Positions 15,837-36,644 of a stretch of DNA of 64,000 bases are shown here, piece after piece. Source of the DNA: Rhizomucor pusillus (lineage: Eukaryota > Mucoromycota > Mucoromycetes > Mucorales > Lichtheimiaceae). Position 1 is the first letter of the stretch. Each line of letters begins with the position of its first letter. A program made the position numbers and the translations under genes. Where the stretch lies: positions 1 through 64,000 of the forward strand of contig FWWN02000451.1 in NCBI GenBank assembly GCA_900175165.2. Direction: 5' to 3'. The notes beneath the pieces are model-generated. The model did no database searches. It saw nothing but the letters and a program-made list of their open reading frames with translations, and was not told where the DNA came from.

Positions 15837-18800
15837 TCAAGATGAAACGGCTGCATCAGCGTTGTTGAACAACTGGCTGCTAGGCGTTTCATTGTTGTTA
15901 TTGTTATCGTTATCATTGCTGTTATTATTGTTTTGGTTATTTGGATTATTTTGCTGGCCATTGACAACGTAGAACATGGGACAATTCTTGTTTGTTTTCA
16001 TGTGTCCAAGCTGACCGCAATTGCCGCAGCGTCTCATGGCACCTTCGCGTTTGCCACGGATAAGACCTAGCACCGGGTTTTCCGCAAGCGCAGCTTGTTT
16101 CGCTAGCTGTCGCTGTCGTCGTCGTTCTGCATTGCGCTTCAGCTTCGCCAACTGATCCTGAATACGTTTCTTCATACGAGCATTCTTTTCCTCGTCGTCG
16201 CACGGCTCCAATGCTTCCGCGCTGGAAAGCAGTTCAGATAAGTTAACCATTCAAACCGCCAAATTTGGCATCTTCCATCTTACCTAGTGGCTTCCTCTTC
16301 GATCATCTGTCGCTGTCGCAAATATGACTTGATAACAACTGGATCGTGAACCTTTTCCTCCTGCCATACTTTTTCGCCATTCTTTTGTCGGATAAGACGA
16401 CGAATAACCAAACATTTGTTTGGATTGTTAACGTGATAACTGGTGCGAGAACTCAGACTTCCAGTAACCGACACTTCATCGTCATCGACGGATGCAGCCC
16501 GATCATATCTTCTACCGTACGGTGCAGGTGATGCAGGCTGAAGTCGTAATTAGCGAAAGCAGCTAAGAGCCATATTTCGTCGCATGAACTCACCATAGGG
16601 CTGTCGACATCCCGTGAAATATCGTCTCCTTCTTGTTCTTCGTTTTCTTGATCAGTCAATTCGGGTTCCACAGTAGAGGAAAGAGCATCCCACTGTGCTT
16701 TCCAGATACGGGCAATCTAATAAAATGCAACCATCAGTATGAATATGCAATATTAGAGCGTGCATACAAATGCTTTTACCTCTTCTTTGTAAATTTGTTG
16801 CTGTTCAGCTACATTGTAACGATGTGCGCTTTTCGGTCTTGCCTCGATCTGCGCAAGTTTTTCTTCTGCAGATTCGCCAGCACGCAAGAAAATATCCTTC
16901 ATAGAGACACGGATGAAGCTGAAGCCTTCTCCACGGCCAGTGGGATCACCAGCACCATAAAGCTTTAACATAGCTTTTCCTTGAGTAGCATTGATGAAGT
17001 TGCGAGTGGCGAACCATGGCGCAAGCTGCTGTTCTACTTCAAGCTTCGAGTCTCCTTCTCCTGTTTCATCTTCGTCGTTGACATCACCGTAACCCAAGTC
17101 TTGCAAGTGCCGTTCGCCAACGAGCATACTTTCGTATAAACAAATCATTTCTGGGGTAACCATTTTACGTAGATCTTCTTCCGAGGGAGGCTCGCCATCA
17201 CCGCGAGGTTTCCAGTATCCTCCGCCGCCATCTTTGCTGCGCCTATGGAACTCGAGAAACTCTTTAAGCCTCTGGCGAATTTGGATATCAGAGTATTCTG
17301 GGAATTTCTGCGCCAGCTTGCTCATTTTCAAGCGATATAGAGGGTTCTTTTTGATAAGGCGGTACGCGGCAACTTGAAGTCGATTCTTAATGGTTGTTGT
17401 GACTTTGCGGGAATGTGGTCCAGGAACTTCTTGGACTGGATAAGTCTGGCCAACGACGAACATCGCTGGGATTTCGCGGATATAATACTTGGTATTACCC
17501 TTGTAGGTGCTCTTTACGAAGAGGAAATCGGTACACTTGACTTCATGTCTGAAGAGAGGAGCACGAATCAAGTTATTGTATAGGACTGGAATGGTCTGAC
17601 CAGGCTCCACATTTCCAAAATTCATAAAAGGCGAAGTGTCTCCAATGTCAAGCACAAATGGCTCTCCAATGTCGCTCTGATAAGATATATTAGTACCAAT
17701 GTCTATAGTCTGCAAAAAAGAAATTTATAACGTACCTGTGGGACATGCTCGTCCTTGGGTTCGGTCTTCCGGTAGTAATTGACGATAAGAGTACCCATAC
17801 CAACGTTGGAAATTATGGGTGGATTCTCTTCCTATAGCCAATAATTAGCAATAATCCTATCATTTACCAAAAAGCGATCAAAAATCATACCGAGAATTCG
17901 AGCAGGACGAACGGCGCATTATCCTTAAAAGATAAATCCTTTGTAGTACGCATAGCATCTGCATATCCCTTCTTCTTGTCTTTCTTTTTCTTTTTAGTGA
18001 CTTTAACGCGAGAGAAACGCACGTCGGTATTGATCGGAATTTGGCAGGATGGTCGGTGGAAAGAGCGCAACTCTGCCTTCGACAATTTGTTTTTATACTA
18101 ACATAGAATGTAAGAATCGGATACCATCAAAATTACACGTATGACTTACGAATGCCGGATGCAGCTTCAGCGCGGGGAGAGCATGGTGTACGACCAGTTG
18201 GCCAAATGTCTGACGAACGCGGACAAGACGACCGGTGTAGTGGGAGTCATAAAACTTATCGTTCGAGAGGTTGAATTTGTTGAGAGGAAGCTTGCTCTGT
18301 GCGTCGGAATCAGTGCTGTAGATAATGGGTATCTTCATAGCACATGTTAGTTCCAAATGCTCATTGATAGATGTCTTTAATACACCCACCTTCGGCAATG
18401 GTTTAGGAAGAGGTTTTCGGCCTTTCTTGACTTGTTTGGCCTCCACCATCTGTGCTTTAGTAGCTTCTACTTCTTCACAGTCAAATAGCATCTTTGGGTC
18501 ATTCAAATCCAGAGCAATCTTGAGATATGTCGGATTCGGTCTTTCATTGTCCCAAATGATAGCATCAAGCCAATCACCATCTTCGAGCTGTTGATTAATA
18601 TGACGCTTGACGATGGAAAACTAGAGATATGCAAATTAGTATAGAATTCGTAAAGACCGCCAATATTGAGCACTTACTTCATCTTTTGCTTCGGCAATAT
18701 CCCTTGAGAATAAAATTATTAGTGATTACTCTTCGAATTTCAAGAATGCAAACTTACTCGTCAATATGCTCTTCCTCTGTAGGCTTTTGCTCGTCATCCC

Positions 18801-19915
18801 AGATAATATCTTCCTCCCATTTATCGAGCATGACTGCATGGAATGCTCGTTCATCATCCACGCCTCTCGGAGGTGGAGTAGTTACAGATTCCTATAGAAT
18901 TATATCAGTAAGAGCACATACGACTACCACCTTCAAATACGTACAGCCTGTGCCTCGTCATCTGATAACACCGACCGATCACTTTCAAGATCGCTCAACA
19001 GCTCATCCTCTTCCTTGACCACGGTGTCGACCCTCCGACGTTTCGAGCCTAAGGCACTGACGGCCGAGCGGATACCATCGCCTTTCATGGGTCTAGAGAA
19101 CAAAGCTTGTTCATCACGTTCGACCTCATATTCGTAACCATCGCCAAAAATCACTATACATAAGTCAAGTTAGAAGTAGACCACCTAAAGCTAACTTCAA
19201 AGACGTACCTCTCTTCTTGGGTTGAAGCTTCGGTGCAAGCTTCAAGTTGGTCATGAACAGGTCGGAAAACTTCAATACTTTGCCCTTTTCAAATGCAGGG
19301 AACAGTTTCTTAATATCAACTTGCTCTCTACGTGGAGCAAATGGTTCCGGTGGAATCATTTCAATCTTGTTTAGCGGTTGCTGCAAAGGCTGCTGAATGC
19401 CAACACCAGCTTGACCCAAAGTCGGCTGTGCCACTGCGAAATCCATTTTGCCTGCAGTGACATCAGTTGCCTCCTCTTCCTCCTCATCATAGTTGTCGTT
19501 AATAGTACGAAGTCGAGATTGTTCTTTCACGGTTTTCTGCAATGCGCCAACACCGCGTTGGTAGTACTTGTCAGAAAACAACTGATCGTCCGGAACAACT
19601 TCGTTGAAGTCAGAGTAATCAATAGCGTTGGACGAATGCGCTATAGGTTGAGTCTGGCGTTGCTCAGCTTCAGCGTTTTCATCAATGAGTTCGTCATTGT
19701 CGCTCTGATCGAGCCCAAATGTCTCCGTGTTGAAGATTCTTGAAAAGATGCCAGAGTCGACATGTTGCAGAGATTCCCTCAATTCCTGCAATGATTTTGG
19801 TTAATTCTGTTCAAAGCACAATAACAAAGACGCAATATTCACATACTTCATCGAGATCGTTGTCGAGACGTCCTTGCTCGTCAACATTACCAAATAGGTA
19901 GCCGGCGAAGGACAT
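15837..19915 (-). CDS. TAF1: TFIID subunit 1 (TAF1)
   Basis: TAF1 is the largest scaffold subunit of TFIID and binds TBP and core-promoter DNA. Thirteen exons join in frame to about 1140 residues: 19915-19847, 19785-19209, 19153-18945, 18891-18758, 18702-18678, 18620-18390, 18332-18150, 18097-17891, 17831-17736, 17709-16780, 16716-16594, 16537-16284 and 16221-15837. The start MSFAGYLFGNVDEQGRL is typical. An acidic N-terminus is followed by WEEDIIWD and GDWLDAIIWD repeats and a NKFNLSNDKFYDSHY block. The central DUF3591 domain has NAPFVLLEFS, VGMGTLIVNYYRK, PQTIDIGTNI and WKPRGDGEPPSEEDLRKMV. A zinc knuckle (C-x2-C-x4-GH-x-KTNK-x-CP) lies near the end, followed by an Asn-rich tail. No bromodomain is present, as in yeast Taf1. 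Exon 5 is only 25 nt, and the 57-nt intron after 18390 keeps the frame open. Confidence 0.95.
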
Positions 19916-20170
19916 GGTTGGTTATGCAAGTAGGGAAGAGAAGGTAACCGGCGTCCCAGGGCGTCAGCGGCATGAATTAAAACTCAGGCATCGCGCTCGG
20001 CATCTACGTTTTCCTATGTATAATGATGCCAAAGTCCATGATTGAGAGAAAGTGGTCAAAAAATATATGTGTATGGACAAAAATGACTATTAGCAATAGT
20101 AGCAGAGTAACGACGAATGACAAAGCATTTTATTCAACAACATAATACAGCGATAAGGGTACGTATAGAG

Positions 20171-21458
20171 TTAATACTCATTGACATATTCGGCTTCCAA
20201 GCTTGTGAGCCATTCAAGCACTTGCTTCATGGTGGGGCGTTCTTTCGGGTCTTGATGGATACACCTGTGCAAGATTTTGCTATATTCTTCGTGCACAACA
20301 CCAGTTTCAAATCCTTCTTCGATGCCATTTTCGGGGAGTTCCTCAGCAAGGGAAATTTCATACATGAGCATACCAAACGCATAGACGTCGGGCTCCTTGG
20401 AGCTCGGTTTTCCTTGCAGTCTCTCTGGCGACCACCATCGTTTAACCATTAGATCCACATCGATCATAGAACTGTTAGTGGTAACTTCTCTGCAAAGCTC
20501 AAATCCCGTGATTTTTGGATCGAAATCGTCTGTTAGCATTATATTATGCGAACGCAAATCCTTGTGGATGACACGGGCTGTGTGGAGATAATCCAATCCT
20601 ACGGCGATGTTTCGGACAAGCTGGATCTTTATAGGTTTGGAAATTTCGAACTGTTCCTTCTTGAAAAAGTCGTTTAGACTTCCAAACGCAGTGGTTGCAG
20701 AGACAATCATCCATTTTTTGTCCTTGGAAAGTACCATGCCGTGCGTGCGAAGAATGTAGTCACAGTCTTGAAGGTTCCAGGTGATCCTTATACCTCGCTT
20801 GATGATACTCAAAGTAGTAACGTCAATGTCACGGTCGATCACACGGATCGCAACCAGGTGCTTCTTGCGCAGGAAATCTTCATGAACTGTACCGAATGGG
20901 AAAGTGCCAGTTGCAGCACCAATTTCAAGGTCGCGAGCGTCAATCATGGTCCTTTCTTGCTTATCCTCCCCGCCATCCGAATCGATAAGTGTTGAACACG
21001 TAACTTGTGTCTCTCGGCAGATTGTAGCACCTTTTCAAACTGTTGGTCATCCTGATCAACCTGCTTTTGGTCCAAAATACCGAGCTCCTTTCTCTGGCTA
21101 ATCTCGGTGCTAATATTATTCATCCATTCATCCAATCTTTCTTTTTTTTTTTAAGAAAAAAGTCCTCGTATTGTCTCGCAATATGATGCGAAGATAAATA
21201 GTAGGTTACATTGCTCTTTGATTTGACCTTGATCAGAAACTTTCTGCAATCAACCAATGTGTACAAGAGTCCGCTGGGGAATGACAGTCCATGACCTTCG
21301 AGTTCTTTTGCGTAGTGTCCAAACACTTCGCATCGTGAGGCCAGATCGTGACAACGCTCCTTGTTGAAGGCAGCTTCTTTTGCGAGTGCGCTGATCTCAC
21401 CGACGAGCTTAAGGACTGTATCGAAGATTGTGCCAGCACCTAGGGGAGCTATTTCCAT
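20171..21458 (-). CDS. MLKL-like protein: four-helix N-terminus plus GFE pseudokinase (possibly disrupted)
   Basis: Two linked parts. The N-terminus (21458 down to about 20990) reads as an amphipathic four-helix bundle with IFDTVLKLVGEISALAKEA, CHDLASRCEVFGHYAKEL and HIARQYEDFFLKKK, then after a frame change EWMNNISTEISQRKELG. Spacing and character resemble the killer/adaptor bundle of MLKL and the N-terminal domain of Rhizophagus kinase-like proteins. The C-terminus (20947-20171, 259 codons) is a kinase fold lacking catalysis. The beta-3 Lys is Arg (VAIR, residue 35), HRD is HKD (128-130) with Asn135 kept, and DFG is GFE (148-150), the same replacement as in vertebrate MLKL. SPE and DVYAFG are intact. 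The frame shifts once at an 11-A run (T run at 21142-21152), and the link to the kinase near 20960-21080 needs either an intron starting at a GTATTT donor or another shift. It is either a living gene with a sequence error or a young pseudogene. The role is unknown. Confidence 0.68.
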
Positions 21459-23891
21459 TATCTCGCGTCAACAACAGGAGAAGTCTGTATAAGTAGCCAA
21501 AACATGCTCCTGGAGCGAGAAACCTTTTAAACTTTAAAATTGAAAGATTATCTGTATAACGTTGTACACGACCAGGCTCGCACTCTGTTGTTGGCAACAA
21601 AAATGCAAGCACTGCCGAAAATCGGGATTACTACCATAAAATTCGTGTTTATTTGTTCCAAATTGACATATTATGGAGACAAAGTATCGACGGACTGTAA
21701 TCACGAACGTTACGAACTTATATGGTCGTCATACATGTAATGATGCAAAAATAGAGACAGTGATAAGAAAGTTACATTGTAATTATCCAGTCATATGGAC
21801 GTCATAGCACTGGAAGAAAGATTGGTCTACTTTCAGTGAAAATAATGAAAACGACGCATTTTCCGATTCAAACGCCAGCCGAAGTCCAAGCCCAAAGCCC
21901 GATTTGGGATATCATCCCGTTATGTCTTTGGATGTATCCCTTCATTCTACATGGCGCAGCCTGCAGCTTTAGTCTTCTTACTCAAAATCCATCCAACTGC
22001 CACAGGATTACCAGAGAAATAAGTACCATGCGAAACCAATCGTTGAGAACTGCGAAAGTTTTCAAGGCGAAATGCTGGATGATCCGTAGATCTTCGTGTA
22101 CTGCTTTGACAGTGATGTTTTCTAAGCTGAGATGCTGATCAAAACTTCGGTAAAGGTAATCATGGAAATGGTTTTTTCGCCTGTGGGCCGGCTTCCTCTT
22201 TGATGATTTCATTTTGCCTTCCCTGATTTTTGCCCACACTTGATTCTATCTGCAGTAGAAATGTACCTTCATGTCCATCACGATGTATAGCAGGCTATTA
22301 CAGTGAAGAGTGCTGTCGAATGTTTAATGTAATAATAATATTTTGAAAACAGAACAGGAAGATAAAGGAATGCAGTGCCTCAAATCGTGCATGGGGCTGT
22401 TGAGCGTGATTGTTGCCAGCTAGCCACCAAGTTCTAGTGCGTTTTAGCTTCTGTTGGGTCTGGTTATTTATGAACCCACAGACACGAACAAGCTTGTTTT
22501 GATTCTTGACGGTTGAAGATCGTCGCACCACGGCCCACCTTCTCCCGCTCACATAACAGCTCCATCAGCGTCTTCATGGTCTCCTGAACCGCTGTCTGTA
22601 ATATGTACACTTTAGATTCTAGGAGTAGTTGTTAACAGTGACCATGTCACAAAGCGTTTCTTGTCACGGGCGAGCTGCTTGCTACGCGGGAAGTCTCCTG
22701 TCTATCTTCGCTTACCATGGCAATGGATGAAATGGATTATGATTTTTTTAAGCTGTCGAAACTGACCCTTGATACTGGACAGCGAGGGTACGCAACATCG
22801 CCAATAGACCGAACGCCGTCTTAATAGTGGTCGCTAAGTGAGTGTGGTATCCAATGCCATAAAGGAGAAGAGGAGAATGAAACGGAAGTATATAAAGTCT
22901 TGGCGACCTAATAAAGAACCGTACAAGAGCTTGCACGATTGTTACACCATAATCAGCCTCGGTGCTCTCGTATTCGTTGTATGCACCTGAAGCCTCGACC
23001 AAAGCACTCGGCATCGTCCGACCTGCGGACTATTCTGTCGACATTGTTGCAACGTAGGTGTCCATTTTCTATGCTTTGGTCCTGGGGCCGCGTTGTCAAA
23101 GAGTTTAATGCTATTTCACCAGGGAGATACATAGCGTCATGGCCACATTTAAGTAGAAACATCATGCAAGCTGTGAGACAAGGATTAATTAGTAAGTTAG
23201 CTACGAAAGCAGGCTTCGCTTCTTGAGAGGATATCAGAACCATAGCCATCGTATGTATCCTTTTGGTAATTTTCAAATTGGCTTGAATAAAGTACGGCAG
23301 TTTTTGCCGATGCAATCCACAAAATTTCAAGCAAGTTGACAAAGAACTTCTCGGTTTCCAAAGCCAGTCTGTGGTCTTGTAATTGGCGACATGGGTTGGT
23401 GCTTGGCGTATTTTAGATCATGCTTTTCTCCCATAATAAATAAAGATTAATATTGAATCTACGACTCTCGCTACATCATCTTGAAGGTGTGGGCTTGGCG
23501 TTTTGAGCTGTATGCCTTGTATTTCGCTGCTATGAGTCAGCTGTAGATAAAGATTCTGTGGTAGGCAATCTCACCGACAAACGGTCTTCCGGCACCAAAT
23601 AGCGATCAACTTCTTCGCATAGTAAGCATGTTTTGTTTCGAACATTTATTTAGAAATGGAAAGGGAAAATATGAAAAACGCGATGGACTATGGGTAGATA
23701 CATCTGCATGCTATGTCATTAGGAGGACGAAGTGATAGCGGGAAGACGCTCAATGCAAACCGGATCTTAGACATATGCCATTGCAATCATCACTCTTCGT
23801 CGAAAAGTCTATTTCGTGTAAATGAAAATAGGACGATCGAAACCTATAAACAACATCAGATTGTTAATAGTCGTACTAAATACCTGTCGTC
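21459..23891. other. Gene-poor stretch with decayed coding remnants
   Basis: No intact gene. On the minus strand, 22260-21985 encodes a short basic piece (KRKPAHRRKNHFHDYLYRSF) that aligns without gaps to the start of the histone H2B fold. Overlapping minus frames at 23342-22748 encode hydrophobic stretches (for example RSPRLYILPFHSPLLLYG) that hint at a lost membrane or carrier protein, but I cannot name it. The rest is AT-rich with no signal. Confidence 0.35.
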
Positions 23892-25069
23892 CTAATATTC
23901 TATCCCTATCTTACCTTTACTCTCGCTCTCAAGCTTTTCCAGTCTTTGCACGGACTTAAACCCTACATGCTCCAAGAGGTATTTTTCATAGTCTTCAGGT
24001 TTAAAACTAAGGCTCTTGAAAACAGAATACATGTGCTACCAAAAATGTTTAGAACGCCAACCGATGTGGAAGAGCATCTTATAGGAATACTTGCTTCGTC
24101 CTCCTTGGCTCGTCGTTCGAATGTATTGAATTCTTGGGGTTCCAATATCAGTGCTCCTCCAGGTTTGATACAATTGTATGTTTTCTGGAAAAATCGTTTG
24201 AGGCCATCATCGCCGTGGTGTAGCTGAATCCATTTTGTGATGCTCATTCTAGGATAATACAGTGTCAAATATATAAATACTCTCATATTCGAGGAACCGT
24301 ACTTACGCAAGCACGGTGTGGTATTGCTCTATGTGTTCTTTTACCCCTTCTTCCATCCAATCGCCTGCTTTAAATTTGACATTGAAGGGGAACTCTGTGC
24401 TTTCAAATCCAGGCGGAGTGTGCATAGGCATATAGCCGTACAAATTGCTCATAGACCGCGGAAAGTAGTGGAATCGCATTTGGATGTCAATATTCCACTC
24501 TTTCTTCGTGGGATCACATAGAGAGTACGCCATCCTGACATTTTGTTTCGCTTTGTGCACCAAAGCTTCATCAATGTCGATTCCTAATACATATGCCGGC
24601 AGATATCGCATTGCTAAGGATGAATCGTAGGCATGTTAGGAGGACATGTGTTCATCCACCCGTGATGGCGCTTTTTACCTAGTGCTATTGTGAAATTTCC
24701 AGAATTGCATCCAATATCCAGCACCTTTTTATCTCGGAATAGCTCGGCGTCCAAAACGTCGAGACGTCTATCGGCTTTGCCTTTACCACGTCGATTTCTA
24801 CAGATTCATTAAAATCCACTGCTCCCATGCGCATCTGCGGTTTTGTAATGATAGAAAGGCAGGACTTACTCGTAATATTTGGGGTAATTGCCATAAGGAT
24901 ACATCTGCATCTCCTTTGAAGATCGGAAATCTCGAGTCTGATCGCCGTCCGAGCGACTAGACTTGTCTCCTTTCTCGTCCCGTTCGTTGATAGATTGCTC
25001 CGTTTTGACACGTTTTGGAGGCTGATCGTTGTGCTGAAGAATGCGTCGTTTTTCCGGGAGTTCGCTCAT
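23892..25069 (-). CDS. Bin3-type RNA methyltransferase (MEPCE/BCDIN3 family)
   Basis: Bin3 enzymes add a methyl group to the gamma-phosphate at the 5' end of small RNAs (7SK in animals, U6 and telomerase-associated RNA in fission yeast). Exons are 25069-24870, 24797-24679, 24613-24307, 24248-24095 and 24035-23892, giving 307 residues. After a charged, Lys-rich N-terminus comes YPYGNYPKYYENRRGKGK. The SAM motif follows as KKVLDIGCNSGNFTIALA with VLGIDID. The Bin3 signature ALA-MSITKWIQLHHGDDGLKRF is followed by PGGALILEPQEFNTF. The last intron has a GC donor; using it restores SLSFKPEDYEKYLLEHVGFKSV, the family's C-terminal block, whereas reading through gives nonsense. A further short exon after a GTAAGA near 23903 is possible. 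Nuclear RNA capping is the likely role. Confidence 0.87.
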
Positions 25070-25486
25070 GTTTTATCTAGCATGAAGAAAAATGGGGAGC
25101 GCGCGTTAGTTTTTTCCCACTCCTCATTTCCATACGAAAATTCTCGTGATCCCGTCGAAAGAAAAACTTATATAACATAACAAAGAAGAGACGAACTGCA
25201 TATTCATTTTTGTATGTACATACACATTGAAGCAAAGAAAGGGGAAGGGGGATCAGAGAAAAAAGCTTTCCATTGGAAATAGCACTTGGGTTGCAAACAG
25301 CTATATAGAAAAAGACACATGAGAGAGAGGGAGAATCCGTAATGGGGGGGGAAGAAAAATAAAGAAAGAAATAAGAAAGGAAATGTTTGGGTATGAAATC
25401 GAGAGTGAGTTTGTGAGGATGTGCTGCTGGAATCCATCGATACATTTACAAAGGCACAGAGCGAAATAAGTAAGGGGAGGAGTTCA
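25070..25486. other. Intergenic, purine-rich
   Basis: No gene. The stretch has a purine-rich region (GAAAGG, GGGGGG near 25345) and would hold the Bin3 gene's promoter and the 3' UTR of the SWIB gene. Confidence 0.4.
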
Positions 25487-27173
25487 TCACATAACAGTCG
25501 CAGACGCGGATGCAGAAAGCATATTCTCTCCCTCCTTTGGTGTTACTACATCGGGCGTCTCCGCTGTGACAGCGGGTGAGGTATCCACCTCATCAGTGGG
25601 TTCGGCTTTAATCTGCTGTTTGTCCGAGGAGCTGTCGTCCGGTGTCTTGTTGGTCAAATGTTCAGACAAGTATTTGTTCATGGTAAATCCATTCACTCGG
25701 TCCATATTGAAAATTCCTTTAAGCTTTTCGTCGCAAAGAATGAATCTGCGATCGGCAGGGTCCTGAAGATTGTTATCTTTAATGTAGGACCATACTTTTT
25801 TAACCACCTTGGGTCGTGACATCTGTTGTATTACTGGCGGTGAGTAAAGTGGTCTTTGAAAAGCTTTTTGGTTTAGTAGTACCTCGGCTTCTCCAACAAG
25901 GGCAAACAAGGCTGGACTGAGCAGCAGCGGCTTGTCCAAGCCCGTTTTGCGTTTCGGTCTGGGAGGAGCATTTGGATCGACAGGTTCTTTAGATTTAGCC
26001 TTCTTCTTTCTCGATTTCGCATTCTTTTTGGGTGCCACTAAATCGAAGCTAAATTCACCCACTTCGTTCTCCTTGCGTTGTTTGTGGTTCAAATTCAAAT
26101 GCATTTGCGGATAAGGTTGATGATGAGCCATGGTGGGTATCGGCGACTGGAAGTTGCTCTGAGGCGGGTAACGACGGTAAGGATTGGGAGTGCTGCCCGG
26201 CATTGGCATATTTCCCCGTTGATGCTGCTGCTGTTGTTGGTGATGGTGATGATGCGGTTGCTGGTGAGGAGTCATGGGACCAAGGTTCGGAACCACATTA
26301 TAGGCTTGTGAATACGCCCTAGTGGACACGGGGCCATGGTGAGTTTGATGCTGTTGCTGAAGCTGTTGCTGCTGCTGCTGGGGCGATATCATATGCATCG
26401 TTGTCTGTGAAAATACGTTCTGGTCCGGAAAGGGGGGCGCCATAGACTGCGGCGTGGAGACTTGCTGTGGTGAATACATTTGCGGCTGCGGAGGTGCCGG
26501 TCGATACGACGGATACGTCAGATACGCTTGTCGCTGGTTCTGGAGCGCTGCAGCGGCTGCGGCGGCAGCAGCAGCAGCAGCTGATGTTGCCGTTGCTGCT
26601 GAGCGTGGAGGAGGCGGGTGGGATTGCTGCTGTTGCTCTGGTAGCATCTGTATGCGTGCTGGGATCGACTGTGGTGAGGCGCTCAAGGCCGGTGTCGACA
26701 TTGACATACCATTGAATTCCGGATATGAATTGAGTTGCATTAGCGAGTTGTCAAGAAAGCCCATGGCGTCAGTTCCAGGCGTTGAAATAGCCGGTTGAGT
26801 CATGTATGGAGGTCGCTGCTGCTGCTGCTGCTGCTGCTGCCGTGCCATGTAGGTCTGTTGTTGGAGGGTCGGCTGTTGATCAACGAGCGTCAGGGCCGAC
26901 TGCATATTGCGTTGATCAGGACGATAGTAGTCCATGTTGACAATTCTGGGATTACTCTTGTCAACGGTGTTGGGGACGGATGTGATGCCGAAGGAAGCGT
27001 AAATTGTAGGGTCTGCATGAAGAAAGAAGAAAGAAACGCCATTTAATGATCCATCACGCCTCCTCCCTTAACTCCCACTCCCCGCACAGCCCCCCTCTCA
27101 GCTCCCATCCTTGGACCCTTCGCCGGACAAGGTCGATGGCCTTACCTTGAAAGATAAACTGATTCTGGTCCAT
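25487..27173 (-). CDS. Gln-rich protein with C-terminal SWIB/MDM2 domain
   Basis: Exon 1 (27173-27146) and exon 2 (27012-25487) join to 517 residues starting MDQNQFIFQDPTIYASFG. The first 300 residues are low complexity, with poly-Gln, poly-Ala, His-rich and Pro-rich tracts, as in transcription co-factors. A basic KKNAKSRKKKAKSK stretch and a P-x-RPKRKTG linker precede the SWIB domain at about residues 360-450 (LLLSPALFALVGE, RPKVVKKVWSYIKDNNLQD, RRFILCDEKLKGIF). SWIB domains occur in SWI/SNF BAF60 proteins, in Pol I factor UAF30 and in Tri1; this architecture could belong to any of these. A nuclear chromatin or transcription role is inferred. The intron is 133 bp, long for this window. Long antisense frames across the repeats are shadows of codon repetition. 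Confidence 0.82.
26816..26841. repeat. CTG/CAG trinucleotide run (poly-Gln)
   Basis: About nine uninterrupted GCT/CTG units encode the first Gln tract of the SWIB protein. A shorter related run sits near 26365-26380. Confidence 0.9.
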
Positions 27174-29882
27174 CAAGTCGATATGCGGGTGGTGCCGGTT
27201 TGGGCAAAAAATGTGGGTAACGTGAAGGGAAACAACCGGAAATTATTTCACTTGTACCGAAATAACAACGTTGCTACCTCCAATTGTGTCTAAAGTGCTG
27301 TTCTCTACTCAAAGCAAATAGAGTAAAAGTAAAAGCAATAAGGCAATGACAAAAAGAGAAGAAGTCGGATGGGAGCACGGGAAGGGGAAAAAAGGCACGC
27401 TGCACAATGAGGGCACAGTATATCTGTACTATAAAATTGACAAGGCACTCCGTGACCTTCCTTGCAGTGTCTTTTCGCTTGTGGTCCGCATTGACACACA
27501 CACTCTCACACACACACACACACACACGCTATACATACCTGGCACACAGACATGTACCCGCTTTTGTAAATAATGATTCGAGGTTTCGACGATCGTTAAA
27601 GAGCTGCGGTTGTTACTCTGCAGCTTCGTTCCTCCTCCTTTTCCGTTCCGCGTTCGATATTTCTGTTCCCGCCGTATCACCTCTACTGCTTCGGATCGTC
27701 GGGCTGTGCTTGAACAGCGGCATGTCCGTCTTGGCCCTGATGTGTGGACAGTAGGCGTTCAAACCTATTGCTCCCTCAAGTGTATTTCGATCAACCAGAG
27801 CTATGATCCTCAGGGATCGGGAGGGGGAAAGCATACCTGAATCCATTTATAGATACCATCGACGTGCACTTGGCGGTTGCACCCCGCGTTCCAGTTCTTT
27901 TCCTTTAAATGTTCCCCCTTTAAAGTGATAAGGAGATCAGTTTCGATCTCTTTTACCCGCAGTAAAACACAATCAAGTATAAGGCAATGAAAGAAATGAA
28001 GCCGCAGCATTGGATTGCACATGTGAAAAAATAGATAAATGGATAGTATTGATAATATCGATAAGAGGATAAAGAAAAGAATACCAATAAAAACTAGATG
28101 GCCCCGCTGCACGTTGGCTTGACAGGTAGGGATGATTTCATTTCGGGACCTTTATATTTGGATATTTGTTAATGAAAAGTACTCGTTTGTCATGCTTGAA
28201 CGAGGAGTCTAGTTACTGCTGTTCTGTGCTCCTCAATGCTGCGTCAGCCACAGGCATTGTGACCAGCTGTCAATACTTGTTTCCGTATCGGATGCGAATT
28301 CCCAAACCCAACGCGACCTTGTGAAAAAAGGGGGAAAGCTTAATTAAAATAATAATAAAAAATGTTAACATTCAATTCATTTTTCATTGATCTACAAGCA
28401 TACCTTTTCAAAGGTATACTATTACTAGGGCCTCATGAACCCAAACCATGCAGAAAGGGGTTTTTGATCAAATTGCTAAAGCGCAGGAGACGGACCTAGA
28501 AGAAATTCTCACAAGGCAGACACAGCAGGGACACAAATAGCATCCTGGGTAAATTTATTCTACCAGCGATCGAATAGATTATCACGAAAACTTTATCATC
28601 ACAAATTGTTATGTTTCTACCAATGGATACTATACATCCACTGAGCTTTGAATGGCTGCAAATGCTGTATCATGATAAAGCACACGTAATGGATCGTCCC
28701 TAATAGTCAATCGCCGATTAAGAGATGAGCAGCATCCAAAAGGCATGAATGGACTGTAAGTTTCACAGGGTTCAAGCGTGGTACAAGATATTTCGCAGCT
28801 GATGCAGTTTTTCGCTCTTCCTTCTGGTAATAATAATATGCACACAATAAATTTCGTTCGTAGGTTGGAGTCTATTCCAGTACAACCGCTGCCGATTAAT
28901 TCGCATCAAACGTCTGCTACCCCATTGGTAATCAAATCTGTAGTCTTCGCAGTAAATATGTATAAGCTGCATGTCGTATTTTTAGATGATGGGACTGTAA
29001 TTGATATCGGATTGAGTTGCATAAAAATTAAATGGAATAATTGTCAAAATTTCACCAATATCTAACATGTCGTTGATCGTTTGATTGATATAGATTACTT
29101 CTGGAGGGTTGTAAAGGACCTTCCTTCTTCCTCCAGCATATCTGTCAATTCCATTAAAGATATCTCATTGTACTTTACTTGATGTCATATATCGTTACAT
29201 TACTATATTATGTAGAACGGCAAAAAACGCTGCATATTTATAATCCATCGTGGCTTTGAAAGTACCAAAGGCAAGTTCTACATTTAGTAGTAGCAGTAGT
29301 AGTAGAAAACCGCCCTGACGATCTGATCGAAGAGTGAATCTGAATATGGAAAGCATGCGACTGAAATGCTTAAAGTACGCATAATGACAAGTAAATCAAG
29401 GGCCGTGCGAGGACTTTTCTGCATCAACCGCTTTTGGTACCTGCAGGCATTTCCATATTGCATGGTGGTTCGACAGATATACAGAGTGTTTGTACCTGTC
29501 TGTATGTGGAAATAGAAGGTTGACACTGTACTAGAAAGTCAAGAACAGGAAGCATTAAAGTTTCGAAACTTGCAATGTTACATAAAATCGAGCATATTTG
29601 GTCAAGCGATACATCTTCGCTGTCGATATCCGTTAGATATATAAGCTTTTGTGAGCACATACCAGAAAAAGATTGCTAGAATGGATCGAGGCCCTTTGCC
29701 CATTGAAAATCACACCATTTTCTTGATCGACTGGGTGCGGTCTGCCATGAAGTCCGAGATGTCGCACAAAGGGACGGGCCGTCCGGGGCGGAGAGCAGAG
29801 ATGCGAACTGTTGTGACCGCTGGAGATAGACCGACTTTTTAAAAGCGATACCTCTGGGACTCTTCTAACATCTGGTGGCATC
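27174..29882. other. Long intergenic region between SWIB gene and CYP51
   Basis: 2.7 kb with no supported gene. It holds a (CA)n microsatellite (27494-27528), purine-rich and pyrimidine-rich tracts, and short frames that look random. One short frame opening MQKGVFDQIAKAQETD at about 28449 and one near 28620-28710 (HPLSFEWLQMLYHD) could be decayed coding pieces, but no family is recognised. The two flanking genes diverge, so both promoters must lie here. Confidence 0.4.
27494..27528. repeat. (CA)n microsatellite
   Basis: A dinucleotide ACAC tract of about 35 bp, broken once by CTCT near 27503-27506. Confidence 0.9.
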
Positions 29883-31673
29883 ATGGCTTTGATATCCCTC
29901 GCCATCTCGTACCTCCCGGCGGTGTTGGCTTACGGTGCTCTCGTCATCGCTGTGGCCTTTGCAATTCACATTCTCTCCCAATTGGTAAGCGCAAATGCAA
30001 AGATAATGTCTTCTACGTGGAGGCTTAATGGCCGTTGTGTCTGTAGATTGTTCCCAAGGACCCTAGACAACCTCCTGTCGTCTTTTCATGGATCCCATTC
30101 CTTGGAAATGCTATCGACTTTGGAATGTAAGTATAGTAATAGCAAGTCGTTATATGCACGGTAATTTTAATACTTTTGCAAACCTAGGAACCCGATTGAA
30201 TTTTTGAAGAACTGCCAACAGAAATACGGTGATGTCTTCACTTTCCACATGGTTGGCAAGCGTGTCACCGTGTGCCTTGGTGCTGATGGCAACCAATTCG
30301 TTTTCAACAGCAAGCAAAATTTGTCTTCTGCTGCTGCTGCTTACAACCACATGACGAAATACGTCTTTGGACCTGAAGTCGTTTACGATGCTCCGCACAG
30401 TGTCTTTATGGAACAGAAGCGGTAAGTATTGAGCAAAGAAAGAAATTTTAAGAATGATCTTCGTCTTAAAGCTCTTGTTAATCCCTATTTTGCAGCTTCA
30501 TCAAGGCAGGTTTGAATTCGGAATGCTTCCGTCAGCATGTGCCTATGATTGTTGAGGAGACTACAGAATTCTTCAAGAACTTTGCCAAACCCTCCGGCAA
30601 AATGGAAGCATACTCGACTTTTGGTAAACTCATCATCAACACCGCCTCGCGTTGCCTTATGGGCAAGGAGATTCGCGCCAACTTGGACTCGAGCGTCGCA
30701 AAGCTTTACTACGATCTTGACCAGGGATTCCAGCCTATCAACTTTATGTTCCCTAACTTACCCTTGCCCTCCTACCGACGACGTGACATTGCCTGCCAGA
30801 AGATGGCTGAGCTATACACTAGCATCATCAAGAAGAGAAAGGAAACCGGTGACAACGTAAGCGCGGTGCGTTGTTATGACAACAGGATTGCATGATAACC
30901 AATTTATCTTTTCATAGAGCAACGCCGATTTGCTCCAAGCATTGATGGATGCCACCTACAAGGATGGTACTTCTATTCCTGAAAAGCACATTGCTGGTAT
31001 GATGATTGCGGTTCTTTTCGGCGGTCAGCACACCTCTGCCACTACTTCTGCCTGGACCATTCTCGAGCTGGCCGACAAACCTGAACTCGTCAAGGCTCTG
31101 CGTCAGGAACAGATCGAAAAGCTTGGATCATTGAAGGCGGAGCTTACCTTTGATAATCTCAAAGAGTTGACCTTGTTGGAAGCCTGCATCCGCGAAACTC
31201 TTCGTCTGCACCCACCGATTTTCCAGATGATGCGCAAAGTCATTGCTGACAAGGTTGTGTTTGAAAAGTACGGATATGAAATCCCCAAGGGCAACCATCT
31301 CTGTGCTGCACCTGGTGTCACCCAAGTTGATGAACAATACTTTAACGAGCCTCTTCGTTACAACCCCTACCGTTGGATTGAAAAGACTGATCCCGTCCAT
31401 AAAATGGAAGTTGGTGACGATGCTAACGAAGACTATGGTTTCGGTGCTGTCGGTATCTCTTCCAAGAGCCCCTTCCTTCCGTTTGGTGCCGGTCGTCACC
31501 GATGCATTGGCGAGCAATTTGGTTACCTTCAACTCAAGACTATCTTGGCTACCTACATCCGCATGTTTGATTTCGCGCCCGAACACGGCTCTGGCGTCCC
31601 CAAGCCTGACTACACCTCCATGGTAGTCGTGCCACAGCACCCGAGCAACGTCAGCTATACATGGAGAGAATAA
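29883..31673 (+). CDS. ERG11: Lanosterol 14-alpha-demethylase (CYP51/ERG11)
   Basis: CYP51 removes the 14-alpha-methyl group of lanosterol or eburicol in ergosterol synthesis and is the azole target. Exons are 29883-29984, 30047-30126, 30188-30421, 30496-30856 and 30918-31673, giving 510 residues, the usual length. One N-terminal ER anchor (residues about 8-32) precedes VPKDPRQPPVVFSWIPFLG. The B-C region reads VFGPEVVYDAPHSVFMEQKR. The I-helix carries FGGQHTSATTSAW, the CYP51 form of the oxygen-binding motif. The K-helix is ETLR, and the haem loop is FGAGRHRCIGE with the ligand Cys at about 455. Tyr127 corresponds to the position where one Mucorales paralogue group (F5) is reported to have Phe. 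Having Tyr suggests the F1 type. All exon joins are clean. Confidence 0.96.
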
Positions 31674-32402
31674 TATAAAGTACTTTACAATCTAATCTAG
31701 TTCGTCATTTTGCTTTGCTATTGTCCTTCTTTCTTTTTTCTTAATGATGCTTTCTTTGAAAAATGCAATACATACAGTACTATTTAAACCAATTTATTGA
31801 ATACCTCCTCTCTTTCGATTACTCAGAATGTGTAATTCGTAGCTACCGACATTTGTTGATCATATTTCTGCCTACGCAAATGCAATGTGCTGGAATTTGG
31901 AAAGAAACAAACTCGTTTGAACAGAACAGAGAATGAGCTCGTTCTGGTGTGTGTTTTTGGCCAGCATGCACAAGCATCTCAACAAACGGATTACATATCT
32001 GCTCCTACGATAAGTCTTACAAAATACAGTAAGACCATGCTTCAAGTTGCGTTCAGTAACAACTACTACAGAACAGTTTCTTCAGTCCGAAAGCGCTGAC
32101 TATATGACCCTGGTCTCCGGTCTTCAAAATTTGGGTACGCTTAATTGATATGATTTTTGATGGAATTCCCCACATTTGTAAGTAACTCGGTGTAGAATTA
32201 CAATAGGTTGCTCAGTCGCCATTGAGGATGCTTTGCTGTAATCAACATACTGAATATAATTCGTTTCTCCTTAAATTGTGCTAGCTACATATCGAAGTCC
32301 GGTAACTGCATCCTCAAGTCCTACGTGTGACGAGGTGGCAAGGGAGAATAAGGAACAGAAAGAGGAATGGTGCTACATAGTTTTTGACACGATACCGCTG
32401 CT
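31674..32402. other. Intergenic
   Basis: CYP51 3' flank and upstream region of the kinase-Sel1 relic. No gene is recognised; there is a small plus-strand frame at 31887-32099 without features. Confidence 0.4.
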
Positions 32403-34670
32403 ATGGAGACACCGCCTTCAACGCCCATTGAGCCAGAGCTTTGCATCCTAGAAGACTGCAAGCTAGGTTCAGGCGCGTCTGGACTAGTGTACCTCTGCCG
32501 GTACAATGATCGCAAGGCCGCCATCATGCTGTTTCCAAATGCCTCGGAAGTCAAAAAGTATGTGCAAAAAGCCAGAATGTTAAAGAAGTTAAGGCACAGA
32601 AATATTACCCAGTTTTATGCTATATTATATAATATCACCAGGGCAAAGTCGGAATTGTCATCGACTATGCGAAGCGGGGATCACTAAGGGATGTCCTTGA
32701 ACGAGGCAAACTCGACAATAAGCCTAGGACCATAGAAAGGATCATGAACAACATTCTCAATGGCTTGTCATGTCTTCATGGACGTAGAATACTGAATCGT
32801 GATATCAGATCCATGAATATCTTACTTACACAAAAATATCAAGCCAAGATATGCGACTTTGGACTAGCGATCAAGCTGCGAGCATATAACAAGACCACTG
32901 CAAGAATTGGCACGCTTCGGTGGATGGATCCAGAACTTTTCGATGATGGATCTTTACACACTCGTGCTTCTGCCGTTTATGCTCTGGGATGGGTTCTTCG
33001 GGAGATGCTCGCAAAGAAAGTGCCGTACCATCATATCCACGATTTGTCGCTGGTCGAAAACAAGATACGAAACGGAGAACAGGGAGAGATGCCCAAAGAT
33101 GCACCTGAAAAATACATTGATATGATACAAGCATGCTGGGCTATTGATCCCAGAGAACGCCCAAGCGTCAAAAAGCTCAAGTCAATGCTATCGTTGAATA
33201 TCGAGAAGACGACGTAGAATTCCATCAAGAATTAGCCGAGAGTGATAATGATGATCAAAGTGATAGTGAAGAAAAAGCCAATGGCAATGATGACTACAAC
33301 GATACGCCGGCGCAACTGCCTTCTAAAGACGAAGTATCGTCATGGTCCAGTGTTATGGGCACAATTATTGCCCGTCGTTGCGACAGCCTTCCGGCGCCAC
33401 CTTCAAGTGATGAAGAAAGCGAGCATAAAGGTCCCCAAGCTTTGTTTCGGCAAGGAAGCCTTGACAGTGTCGTGAGCGAGTATAAGAGGGCCTTTGAAAT
33501 ATACAAAGCAGCCGCTGCCCACGACATCCCAGAAGCGCATTACGGTCCAGGTGAACTGTATCGGCTTGGTAAAGGCGTGCTACAAGACTATGCAAGGCGG
33601 CTGAGCATTACAGCAAAGCTGCTAAACTGGGGCATGCACCTGCAAGGTGCTCCCTAGGAAACTTGCACCGTGCAGGCAATGGCATCCCCAGGGGCCATAG
33701 CAAGGGACTTGAACTCTACAAAGAAGCTGCCAAGCAAGGATATGTACGTGCAAAGCGAGATATGGGCCACATGTACGAGACAGGACGTGGCGTACAAAAG
33801 GACTATGCAAAGGCATTTGAGCTGTACAAGGAAGCGGCCGAAAGCGGAGACCCAATCGCGAAATGCATCGTGGGCTTCCTCTACCAGCAGGGATTCGGTG
33901 TTTCTCAGGACTATATAAGGGCGATCCAGCTTTACACCGAAGCGGCTTCGGAAAATCATGCACGGACAATGGCCAATTTAGACACTATGTACGAGCGAGG
34001 CTTGGGCGTTCAGGTAGACTATGAAAAAGCTGCCAATCACTATTGGCGAGCAGCCAGACGAAGACAGCGTTGGGCCCAATTTAGACTTGCTTCTATGTAT
34101 GAGGAAGGACGCGGTGTACCCCAAAACTACAAGAAAGCCATCCAGTATTACAATGCCGCTGCTGCCAGCGGATACGGCGCAGCTCAATGCAGTTTGGCCC
34201 GTTTATACAAGGAAGGTCTCGGTGTATCCCAGGACTATGAAAAGGCCCTGCAGCTTTACAACCAAGCAATTCAAAATGGGAATACAGTTGCAAAATATTT
34301 CCTCGGGGAAATGTACGAGGAAGGCTTGGGTACGATCAAGGACTTGGATAAGGCGTTGGAACTCTACCACGAAGTTGCCGAGGGTGGAGCTTTCCGTGCG
34401 ATGGAAAAGCTCGGTTGGATGTATCAGAACGGGATAGTTGTTGATCAAGACTACGAAGCGGCAGCCGAATACTATACAGCGTCAGCTGAACACGGCAATC
34501 CAGAAGGTCAATATCTCTTGGCCAGCTTATATCAAGAAGAACTGGGGGTTAAGCAGTCCCGAGATAAAGCAATTGAACTTTACATGAAAGCTGCTGAGCA
34601 AGGTCATGACAAGGCAAGATCTGCCCTGTCGATTCTCTTAGAAGATACCTGTGATGTAAACGCATCATAA
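32403..34670 (+). pseudogene. TKL-type kinase fused to Sel1 repeats, with three frame breaks
   Basis: The kinase half opens at 32403 with a G-loop (LGSGASGLVYL). The beta-3 Lys appears replaced by Met (AAIML). A frame shift near 32616-32632 links to GKVGIVIDYAKRGSLRDVL. The catalytic loop is NRDIRSMNILL (HRD to NRD), DFG is intact (CDFGLA), and GTLRWMDPEL and RPSVKKLKSM follow. A second shift near 33195 leads into an acidic linker (DDQSDSEEKANGNDD). A third near 33600 links to a run of about eleven Sel1-like repeats of 36 residues (pattern A-x-ELY-x-EAAE-x-G-x2-A-x3-LG-x-MYE-x-G-x-GV-x-DY) ending at 34670. Kinase plus Sel1 fusions are abundant in Mucoromycota such as Rhizophagus. With three shifts this copy is probably dead, though assembly indels cannot be excluded. 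The shift sites are AT-rich or repeat-like. Confidence 0.8.
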
Positions 34671-35045
34671 TTAACTTTATTTGTTGCTTCCGGCCAGAAA
34701 AATAAATTATTAATTTTAACTATTGCAAAAGTGTTGACATTGGTCCTTATAAACTATTAGAAACGGCTATCAGCTTTTGACTACGAAAACCGAAACAGTA
34801 AAATTTCCTTTTTACTTTTTTCGGTGTTCGTGTTAAGTCATTCTCTCAAACCTTATCATGTCAGCAAGTGCAGGTGTCCCACGCTCCAGTGGTTCGGAGC
34901 AGACTGCTTTGGAAATGGCTCGTCTTCGATTGGCCGAGATGACAAATGGCGGACCAACTTTGAAGAGGCGCATCTCCATATAAAGGGATCTCGCATTGCC
35001 ACCAGTTCTTCTTTTTCTCTGTCCGTCTTTCTTTCTTGAAAAGTC
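34671..35045. promoter_or_regulatory. Upstream region and CT-rich leader of the aminotransferase gene
   Basis: Intergenic. A pyrimidine-rich tract (35007-35037, CTTCTTTTTCTCTG ... TTTCTTTC) lies just before the ATG, as is common at the transcription starts of highly expressed fungal genes. The role is inferred. Confidence 0.35.
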
Positions 35046-36644
35046 ATGTCTCTCTCTTCCAAGCTCGCACAGTTCGGCAAGCAGCACATCGCTCGTGGTA
35101 TTGGCCGCAGCACCGATCTTGTTATTGAACGCGGCCAAGGCGCCTATGTATGGACCGTCGATGGCAAAAAGTACTTTGATTTGACAACTGGTAAAATACA
35201 CACTCGTATTCCGTAAATGATGTCTTACGGAAGATCACTCACGCATTTACATTCCTATAGGTATCGGTGTCACCTCTACAGGTAAGCGCGACAACGTGTA
35301 GAAACGGTTTAGTGCAAGGGCTGATGCATGAATGTTCTTTTTAGGTCACTGCCACCCTGACGTTGTCAAGGCTGTGCAAGAGCAAGCTGCCAAGCTCTCT
35401 CACGGTCAAGTCAACATTGTCTTCCACCGTCCCATGCTTGAGTTGATCGAGAAGCTCAAGCCTAGAATGCCTGATCCGAGCTTGGATACATTCTTCTTTT
35501 GGAACTCTGGGGCTGAGGCTGTCGAAGCTTCCATCAAGTTGGCACGTCAAGCTACCAAGCGTCAGAACGTCATTGTCTTCCAAGGCTCTTACCACGGTCG
35601 TACCTTCGGTACTATGGCCATGACCACCTCCAAGACCGTGTACGGCGCTGGTTTCAACCCTCTCATGCCTGGCGTCCACGTCGCCCCATTCCCTTACTAC
35701 CAACAGTGGGCTGCTCACCGCACCGACCCCGAAAAGTTCACGCCCGAGTGGTGTTCTGAGGAGTCCTTGGCTCAAGTCGAACTCTTACTCAAGCAGCGAT
35801 CAGCACCCGAGGATACCGCCGCAATGATCGTCGAAACTGTGCAGGGCGAGGGTGGTTACGTACCTCCTCCCAAGGGTAAGATCTATATCATCCAAACCTT
35901 ATCTATACGTGTCATGACGCTAACGCTCGTATCCCTCTAAATATAACAATAGGTTTCTTGAAGGGCCTTCGAGAGATCTGTGACAAGCACGGTATCTTGC
36001 TTATCTGCGATGAAGTCCAATCCGGCTTTGGCCGTACCGGCAAAATGTTTGCAGTCGAGCACTACGATGTTGTGCCCGATATAATGGTTATGGCAAAGGG
36101 TATTGCTTCTGGCTATCCCCTTTCCGGTATTGTATCACGCAAGGAATTGATGGATCGTCAACCTGCTGGTTCAATGGGCGGTACATATGCTGGCAATGCT
36201 ATCGCATGCGCGGCTGCCAAGGCAACTCTGGATGTCTTTGACAAGGAGAAGCTGCTGGATAACTGCAATGCTAGGTAAAGATGATGATGGTGAAATCCTT
36301 CTGAAAAAGGTCCAAGTATGGAAAAACCTTATGTGCGCTCGGTTGATAATAGATCGGAACAATTCTTCTCCGCCTTCCGTTCCAAGCTCCCCGCATTGCT
36401 GCCTCCTGGTGTCACCGTAGACGTACGCGGTCTTGGCTTGATGATTGGTATTGAATTCATGGGCGTACCAAAGGGTTTTGCTTCTAAGGTTGCTGCTGAA
36501 GCTTTCAAGATGGATACCCTGCTCTTGACTACTTCAATCTACGAGACTTTGCGTTTGATTCCTCCACTCAATATCACCGAGGAAGAAACCGACTTGGCCA
36601 TTCAACGCGTCCTGGCCAGCGTCGAAGCCGCATTCAAGGCCTAA
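35046..36644 (+). CDS. Class III PLP aminotransferase (4-aminobutyrate transaminase-like)
   Basis: This PLP enzyme probably moves the amino group of GABA or another omega-amine to 2-oxoglutarate. Exons are 35046-35190, 35261-35281, 35345-35875, 35953-36274 and 36353-36644, giving 436 residues, as for bacterial GabT. Exon 2 is a 21-nt microexon that supplies the residues between DLTTG and GHCHPDVV (IGVTST). Class III motifs are FWNSGAEAVEASIKLAR, the SYHGRTFG turn, ETVQGEGGY, LICDEVQSGFGRTG and the PLP-Lys in MAKGIASGYPLSG, followed by GGTYAGNAIACAAA. No mitochondrial targeting peptide is obvious, unlike animal GABA transaminase, so a cytosolic enzyme is likely. Related enzymes act on ornithine, beta-alanine or diaminobutyrate, so the substrate remains open. 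Confidence 0.88.

Follow-up and report, generated by a model that had tools for sequence, protein, structure and literature searches.

The window analysed here is a 64,000 nt stretch of Rhizomucor pusillus DNA (contig FWWN02000451.1 of assembly GCA_900175165.2, positions 1–64,000). On its minus strand, between an ATG at 21458 and a stop codon at 20171, lies a locus whose pieces, in three reading frames (a, b, and c), resemble MLKL, which ruptures the cell in animal necroptosis. The N-terminal domain occupies frame a (21123–21458; 112 codons from the ATG, stop at 21120–21122) and covers, in terms of an MLKL_N-type bundle, helices 1 to 3 and the first part of helix 4. The remainder of helix 4 and a brace helix are found in frame b (20986–21150), which starts within a run of 11 A (T on the plus strand; 21142–21152) that is the sole A or T run of at least 11 in the window and the site of the change from a to b. 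A second frame change at 20986–20989, with one base fewer than in the relative P0001, leads to frame c, a 287-codon open reading frame (20171–21034) carrying the pseudokinase domain. The kinase fold claimed in the original prediction was borne out by a protein kinase match (PF07714, E = 3.3e-35) at 20213–20908, and the three altered motifs it had listed were all found on the minus strand in frame c: VAIR replacing VAIK (20854–20843), HKD replacing HRD (20566–20558), and GFE replacing DFG (20506–20498). A Ser/Thr-rich stretch of the activation loop, TTNSS (20468–20482), lies 6 to 10 residues past the Glu of GFE. All the features that the prediction named are there, but it overlooked two frame breaks, so that no single reading frame spans the locus.

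A protein search with the kinase piece gave 532 candidates, 13 of them at E 1e-5 or better: 10 close relatives (P0001–P0010) and three general kinases. When a profile of seven close relatives was used, 7,999 candidates were scored, and the 26 at 1e-8 or better comprised 16 family members and 10 other kinases; P0009, itself part of the profile query, was not among the matches returned. Both searches combined yielded 17 relatives, and the organisms named among them were Mortierella (n = 5, including four M. alpina) and Entomortierella chlamydospora (n = 1). Lack of GFE conservation among relatives had been set beforehand as a refuting condition, and an alignment of 18 kinase rows (the 17 relatives and the window) showed GFE in every row. 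The position of the VAIK Lys is occupied by R in 11 rows, K in six, and H in one, that of the HRD Asp by D in 16, N in one, and G in one, and that of the loop Asn by N in 16, T in one, and H in one. The GFE signature is constant across the family, whereas the catalytic residues (Lys, Asp, and Asn) vary. For example, P0001, although 97% identical to the window copy, has HKG at the HKD motif and His at the loop Asn, against D and N in 16 of the 18 rows, and retains GFE. Nine residues past the GFE Glu, 17 rows have a Ser or Thr (read by eye in P0004 and P0014, where the script had caught an earlier GFE); in P0009, the spacing is eight residues. GFE is not the norm among the kinases of this genome, as the 14 others with a motif readable by pattern carry DFG (13) or DFN (1).

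The N-terminal helical domain is common to 15 of the 17 relatives (P0001 and P0020 start after it), which rules out a chance fusion beside a kinase. The window piece is 17%–38% identical to the N-termini of eight relatives, a protein search with it gave 138 candidates and none at E 0.1, and the 112-residue piece had no Pfam match at E 1. A sequence search of the same genome (24.45 Mb assembly) detected no further copies of the domain at E 1. A search of that genome with PF22215 (MLKL_N) likewise found no N-terminal copies, but this profile misses the MLKL-like locus too and is therefore little informative. As far as sequence searches can detect, the locus is the only copy of the family in this fungus. 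Apparently uninterrupted members occur in M. alpina (P0005–P0008). These four differ from one another by 7%–12% in the N-terminal domain, 11%–16% in the kinase, and 20%–34% in the linker and brace, a divergence that is large for one named species and could reflect fast evolution or cryptic species.

To characterize the N-terminal domain further, a profile was built from the window piece and eight relatives. Against the PDB, MLKL supplied the best seven of its ten matches (E = 0.00039–0.12, the next being at 0.45), and the single window piece gave two matches, at E 0.41 and 1.8. The structure model of the window piece consists of four helices at low confidence, as had been predicted from the letters, and a Foldseek search with this low-confidence model placed MLKL at ranks 1–4 of 53; in the VIA listing, MLKL took seven of the top eight rows. 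Both the best profile matches and the best fold matches were thus to the MLKL executioner domain, to which the N-terminal domain appears closest in sequence and in modelled fold. With four helices in the model and GFE in every row, the architectural claim of the original prediction withstood both conditions set to refute it. In the profile checks proposed earlier, PF22215 matched eight of the nine full-length relatives scanned, every match falling under the cut-off, and no HeLo-type Pfam match was found for the window pieces (E 1) or for P0001–P0010 (E 0.5), a superfamily so divergent that kinship may exist all the same.

Similarity to MLKL extends over the whole protein. With a full-length profile, mouse MLKL was second of 2,485 PDB matches (E = 1.9e-33), behind a chain that combines two EGFR kinase domains and was scored twice, and the mouse MLKL alignment formed one collinear stretch through both domains with GFE on GFE. 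The AlphaFold model of P0003 (predicted local distance difference test score 79.4, predicted template modelling score 0.84) has helices at residues 3–20, 25–44, 54–72, and 74–103, then a long helix at 118–147 as a brace between bundle and kinase, and a kinase fold; in the window copy, the brace is in a separate frame. In fold searches with the full-length model, the 50 rows listed were all kinases, with MLKL absent among them.

The family shares with vertebrate MLKL (PDB 4BTF and 6LK5) the order of domains, the four-helix bundle, the brace, the GFE pseudokinase, and a Ser or Thr beside GFE. It differs in its catalytic residues, being mostly HKD where mouse MLKL has HRN and human MLKL HGK, and in the frequent Arg at the VAIK Lys. 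In fungi, the literature describes HeLo domains as established kin of the MLKL bundle (PMC9815663, PMC10197012, PMC12881547), places HeLo/HELL and MLKL_NTD-like NLR domains in the same four-helix bundle superfamily (PMC9815663, PMC12881547), and notes some HELL domains in kinase or pseudokinase proteins (PMC12881547). The well-described domains of this kind belong to NLR fusions or depend on amyloid motifs for switching, whereas the partner here is a GFE pseudokinase. MLKL-family homologues were reported as exclusive to Glomeromycotina, with Sel1 repeats, in PMC8778642; Pfam scans of our family members found no Sel1 repeats. An MLKL homologue reported earlier from an early-diverging fungus, Basidiobolus ORX91397.1, appears in PMC11476962, which terms it unclear how fungal and animal MLKL are related. 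Among plant systems, Pm13 differs in that its kinase is predicted to be active (PMC10951266), and the window bundle ranks MLKL above the CC-R domain of RPW8/CC-R helper NLRs, by a small Z margin. Hence, fungal MLKL homologues are already published; for an invariant GFE in such a family, no report was found in the titles, abstracts, and passages covered by the literature search, outside which most subscription papers and bioRxiv preprints lie.

We propose that the family is MLKL-like in its working as well as in its parts: a four-helix MLKL_N-type bundle, a brace helix, and a pseudokinase of TKL-like type whose GFE is invariant would together form a phosphorylation-switched, membrane-permeabilising executioner, a reading that we hold to be somewhat more probable than its negation. 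At rest, the bundle would be restrained by the brace and pseudokinase. The pseudokinase would be switched by a signal, plausibly another kinase phosphorylating the activation loop, which carries Ser/Thr next to GFE; the bundle, once freed, would oligomerise and permeabilise the plasma membrane, so that the hyphal compartment dies. The phosphorylation switch is inferred by analogy with MLKL, in whose orthologues the GFE motif and neighbouring phosphosites are part of the pseudokinase switch (PMC6013482). What the analysis shows is the architecture, the constancy of GFE, and the resemblance to MLKL; a membrane-active switch in cell death or self-recognition, as suggested in the original prediction, is a putative role. 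A family with MLKL domain order and invariant GFE makes it testable whether MLKL-type pseudokinases depend on GFE as their essential switch, and whether MLKL-type execution is older than animals.

Several observations weigh against this proposal. An intact coding sequence is absent from the window copy, which is interrupted by two frame breaks in the sequence analysed. Moreover, judged by sequence, the kinase domain taken by itself shows no special closeness to MLKL. No MLKL was present among the best 60 PDB matches of the window kinase sequence (a control kinase of ordinary type from this genome likewise had none among its best 60), and with a kinase-only profile the first MLKL came at row 51 of 1,164, with SYK, MAP3K9, CTR1, and IRAK4 equal or higher. 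A 36-kinase tree comprised the window, 15 of the 17 relatives, four MLKL, and 16 others, RIPK sequences not among them. Once its VAIK, HRD, and DFG columns were removed, a joint grouping of the fungal GFE rows with MLKL was recovered in 0 of 200 bootstrap trees.

The first of these points concerns the window copy and is compatible with an executioner role for the family. A pseudogene or an assembly error, with no full-length protein made from the locus, is on balance the favoured account of this copy, although by no great measure. The alignment of relatives with the window runs through three frames, corresponding to the N-terminal domain, helix 4 with the brace, and the kinase. The first break lies at the A11 run (21152–21142). 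Within 21240–21085, the frame-correct donors are GT at 21240, 21227, and 21209 and GC at 21214, 21189, and 21179, but donors that reach frame b beyond its stop would remove a helix 3/4 stretch common to the relatives, and an intron was rejected here. P0001 begins just past the position of the A11 run, a hint that its frame also changes there. At the second break, GT-AG pairs exist, but the P0001 protein reads straight through, its residues 1–46 being 100% identical to 20986–21123 and its residues 46–317 being 97% identical to frame c from 20989 on; a one-base difference is likelier than an intron, to judge by this comparison. Three frames with no fitting GT-AG intron among those listed, together with the base missing relative to P0001, favour decay or error, as does the kinase-Sel1 gene at 32403–34670, which shifts frame three times relative to its paralogue on contig C345. 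A whole HSP70 frame (634 aa) and the paralogue frame (715 aa) show that the assembly is not broken everywhere. On the other side, every piece of the locus is still open and 97%–100% identical to P0001, and several other HSP70 matches have internal stops, which may be introns or breaks. Read errors may also play a part. The window copy is probably decaying or misread, and it may no longer work.

The second point bears on the origin of GFE. Fungi may have fused an MLKL_N-type bundle to a TKL kinase themselves, with DFG changing to GFE independently of animal MLKL; we give such convergence slightly less than an even chance. It is favoured by the loss of the joint grouping without the motif columns, by the broad TK/TKL similarity of the kinase domain described above, and by the failure to find MLKL in Radiata or Ecdysozoa (PMC11476962). 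Against convergence, the tree with all columns groups the fungal GFE rows with MLKL (88/86 support, not starred), a forced grouping of the two is still accepted without the motif columns (p-AU, from the approximately unbiased test, 0.367), and the whole-protein alignment to mouse MLKL is collinear. Because the kinase tree joins fungal GFE and MLKL only with the motif columns, GFE may stem from common descent or from convergence. In a bolder and rather improbable scenario, a complete MLKL of bundle, brace, and GFE pseudokinase would predate the animal-fungus split and live on as an executioner of necroptosis-like death in early-diverging fungi, and the conserved switch inherited from the ancestor would be GFE, not catalysis; in the window lineage, the slippage-prone A11 run between killer part and kinase could then act as an on/off device.

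Two functional alternatives to the executioner appear weaker. The bundle could serve as a module for adaptor binding or oligomerisation, with the protein acting as a scaffold for ordinary signalling, devoid of killing activity. Helical bundles are common, which lends this some weight, but an N-terminus closest to the MLKL executioner domain by sequence and fold speaks against it, and we regard a scaffold as unlikely, at perhaps one chance in a few. Retained nucleotide binding or weak catalysis is less credible still and would surprise us: HKD and the loop Asn are kept in most members (HRD Asp and loop Asn each in 16 of 18 rows, VAIK Lys in six), but all 18 have another residue for the DFG Asp that binds Mg, and the window has R at the VAIK Lys. 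The kinase-Sel1 gene, 11 kb from the MLKL-like locus, was considered as an activating partner and set aside, proximity being the only point in its favour.

Elsewhere in the window, that gene (plus strand) encodes a kinase followed by nine stretches of Sel1 repeats; read by eye, it has AAIM at VAIK and NRD at HRD and keeps DFG. A further Sel1-type kinase (L007; G000:C333, about 26.8–30.1 kb) lies in pieces in several frames with internal stops and is perhaps another decayed copy. Rfam gave no matches in 18000–36000. On the minus strand at 31128–31691, a 187-codon open frame runs antisense to a cytochrome P450 exon and is probably a by-product of coding bias.
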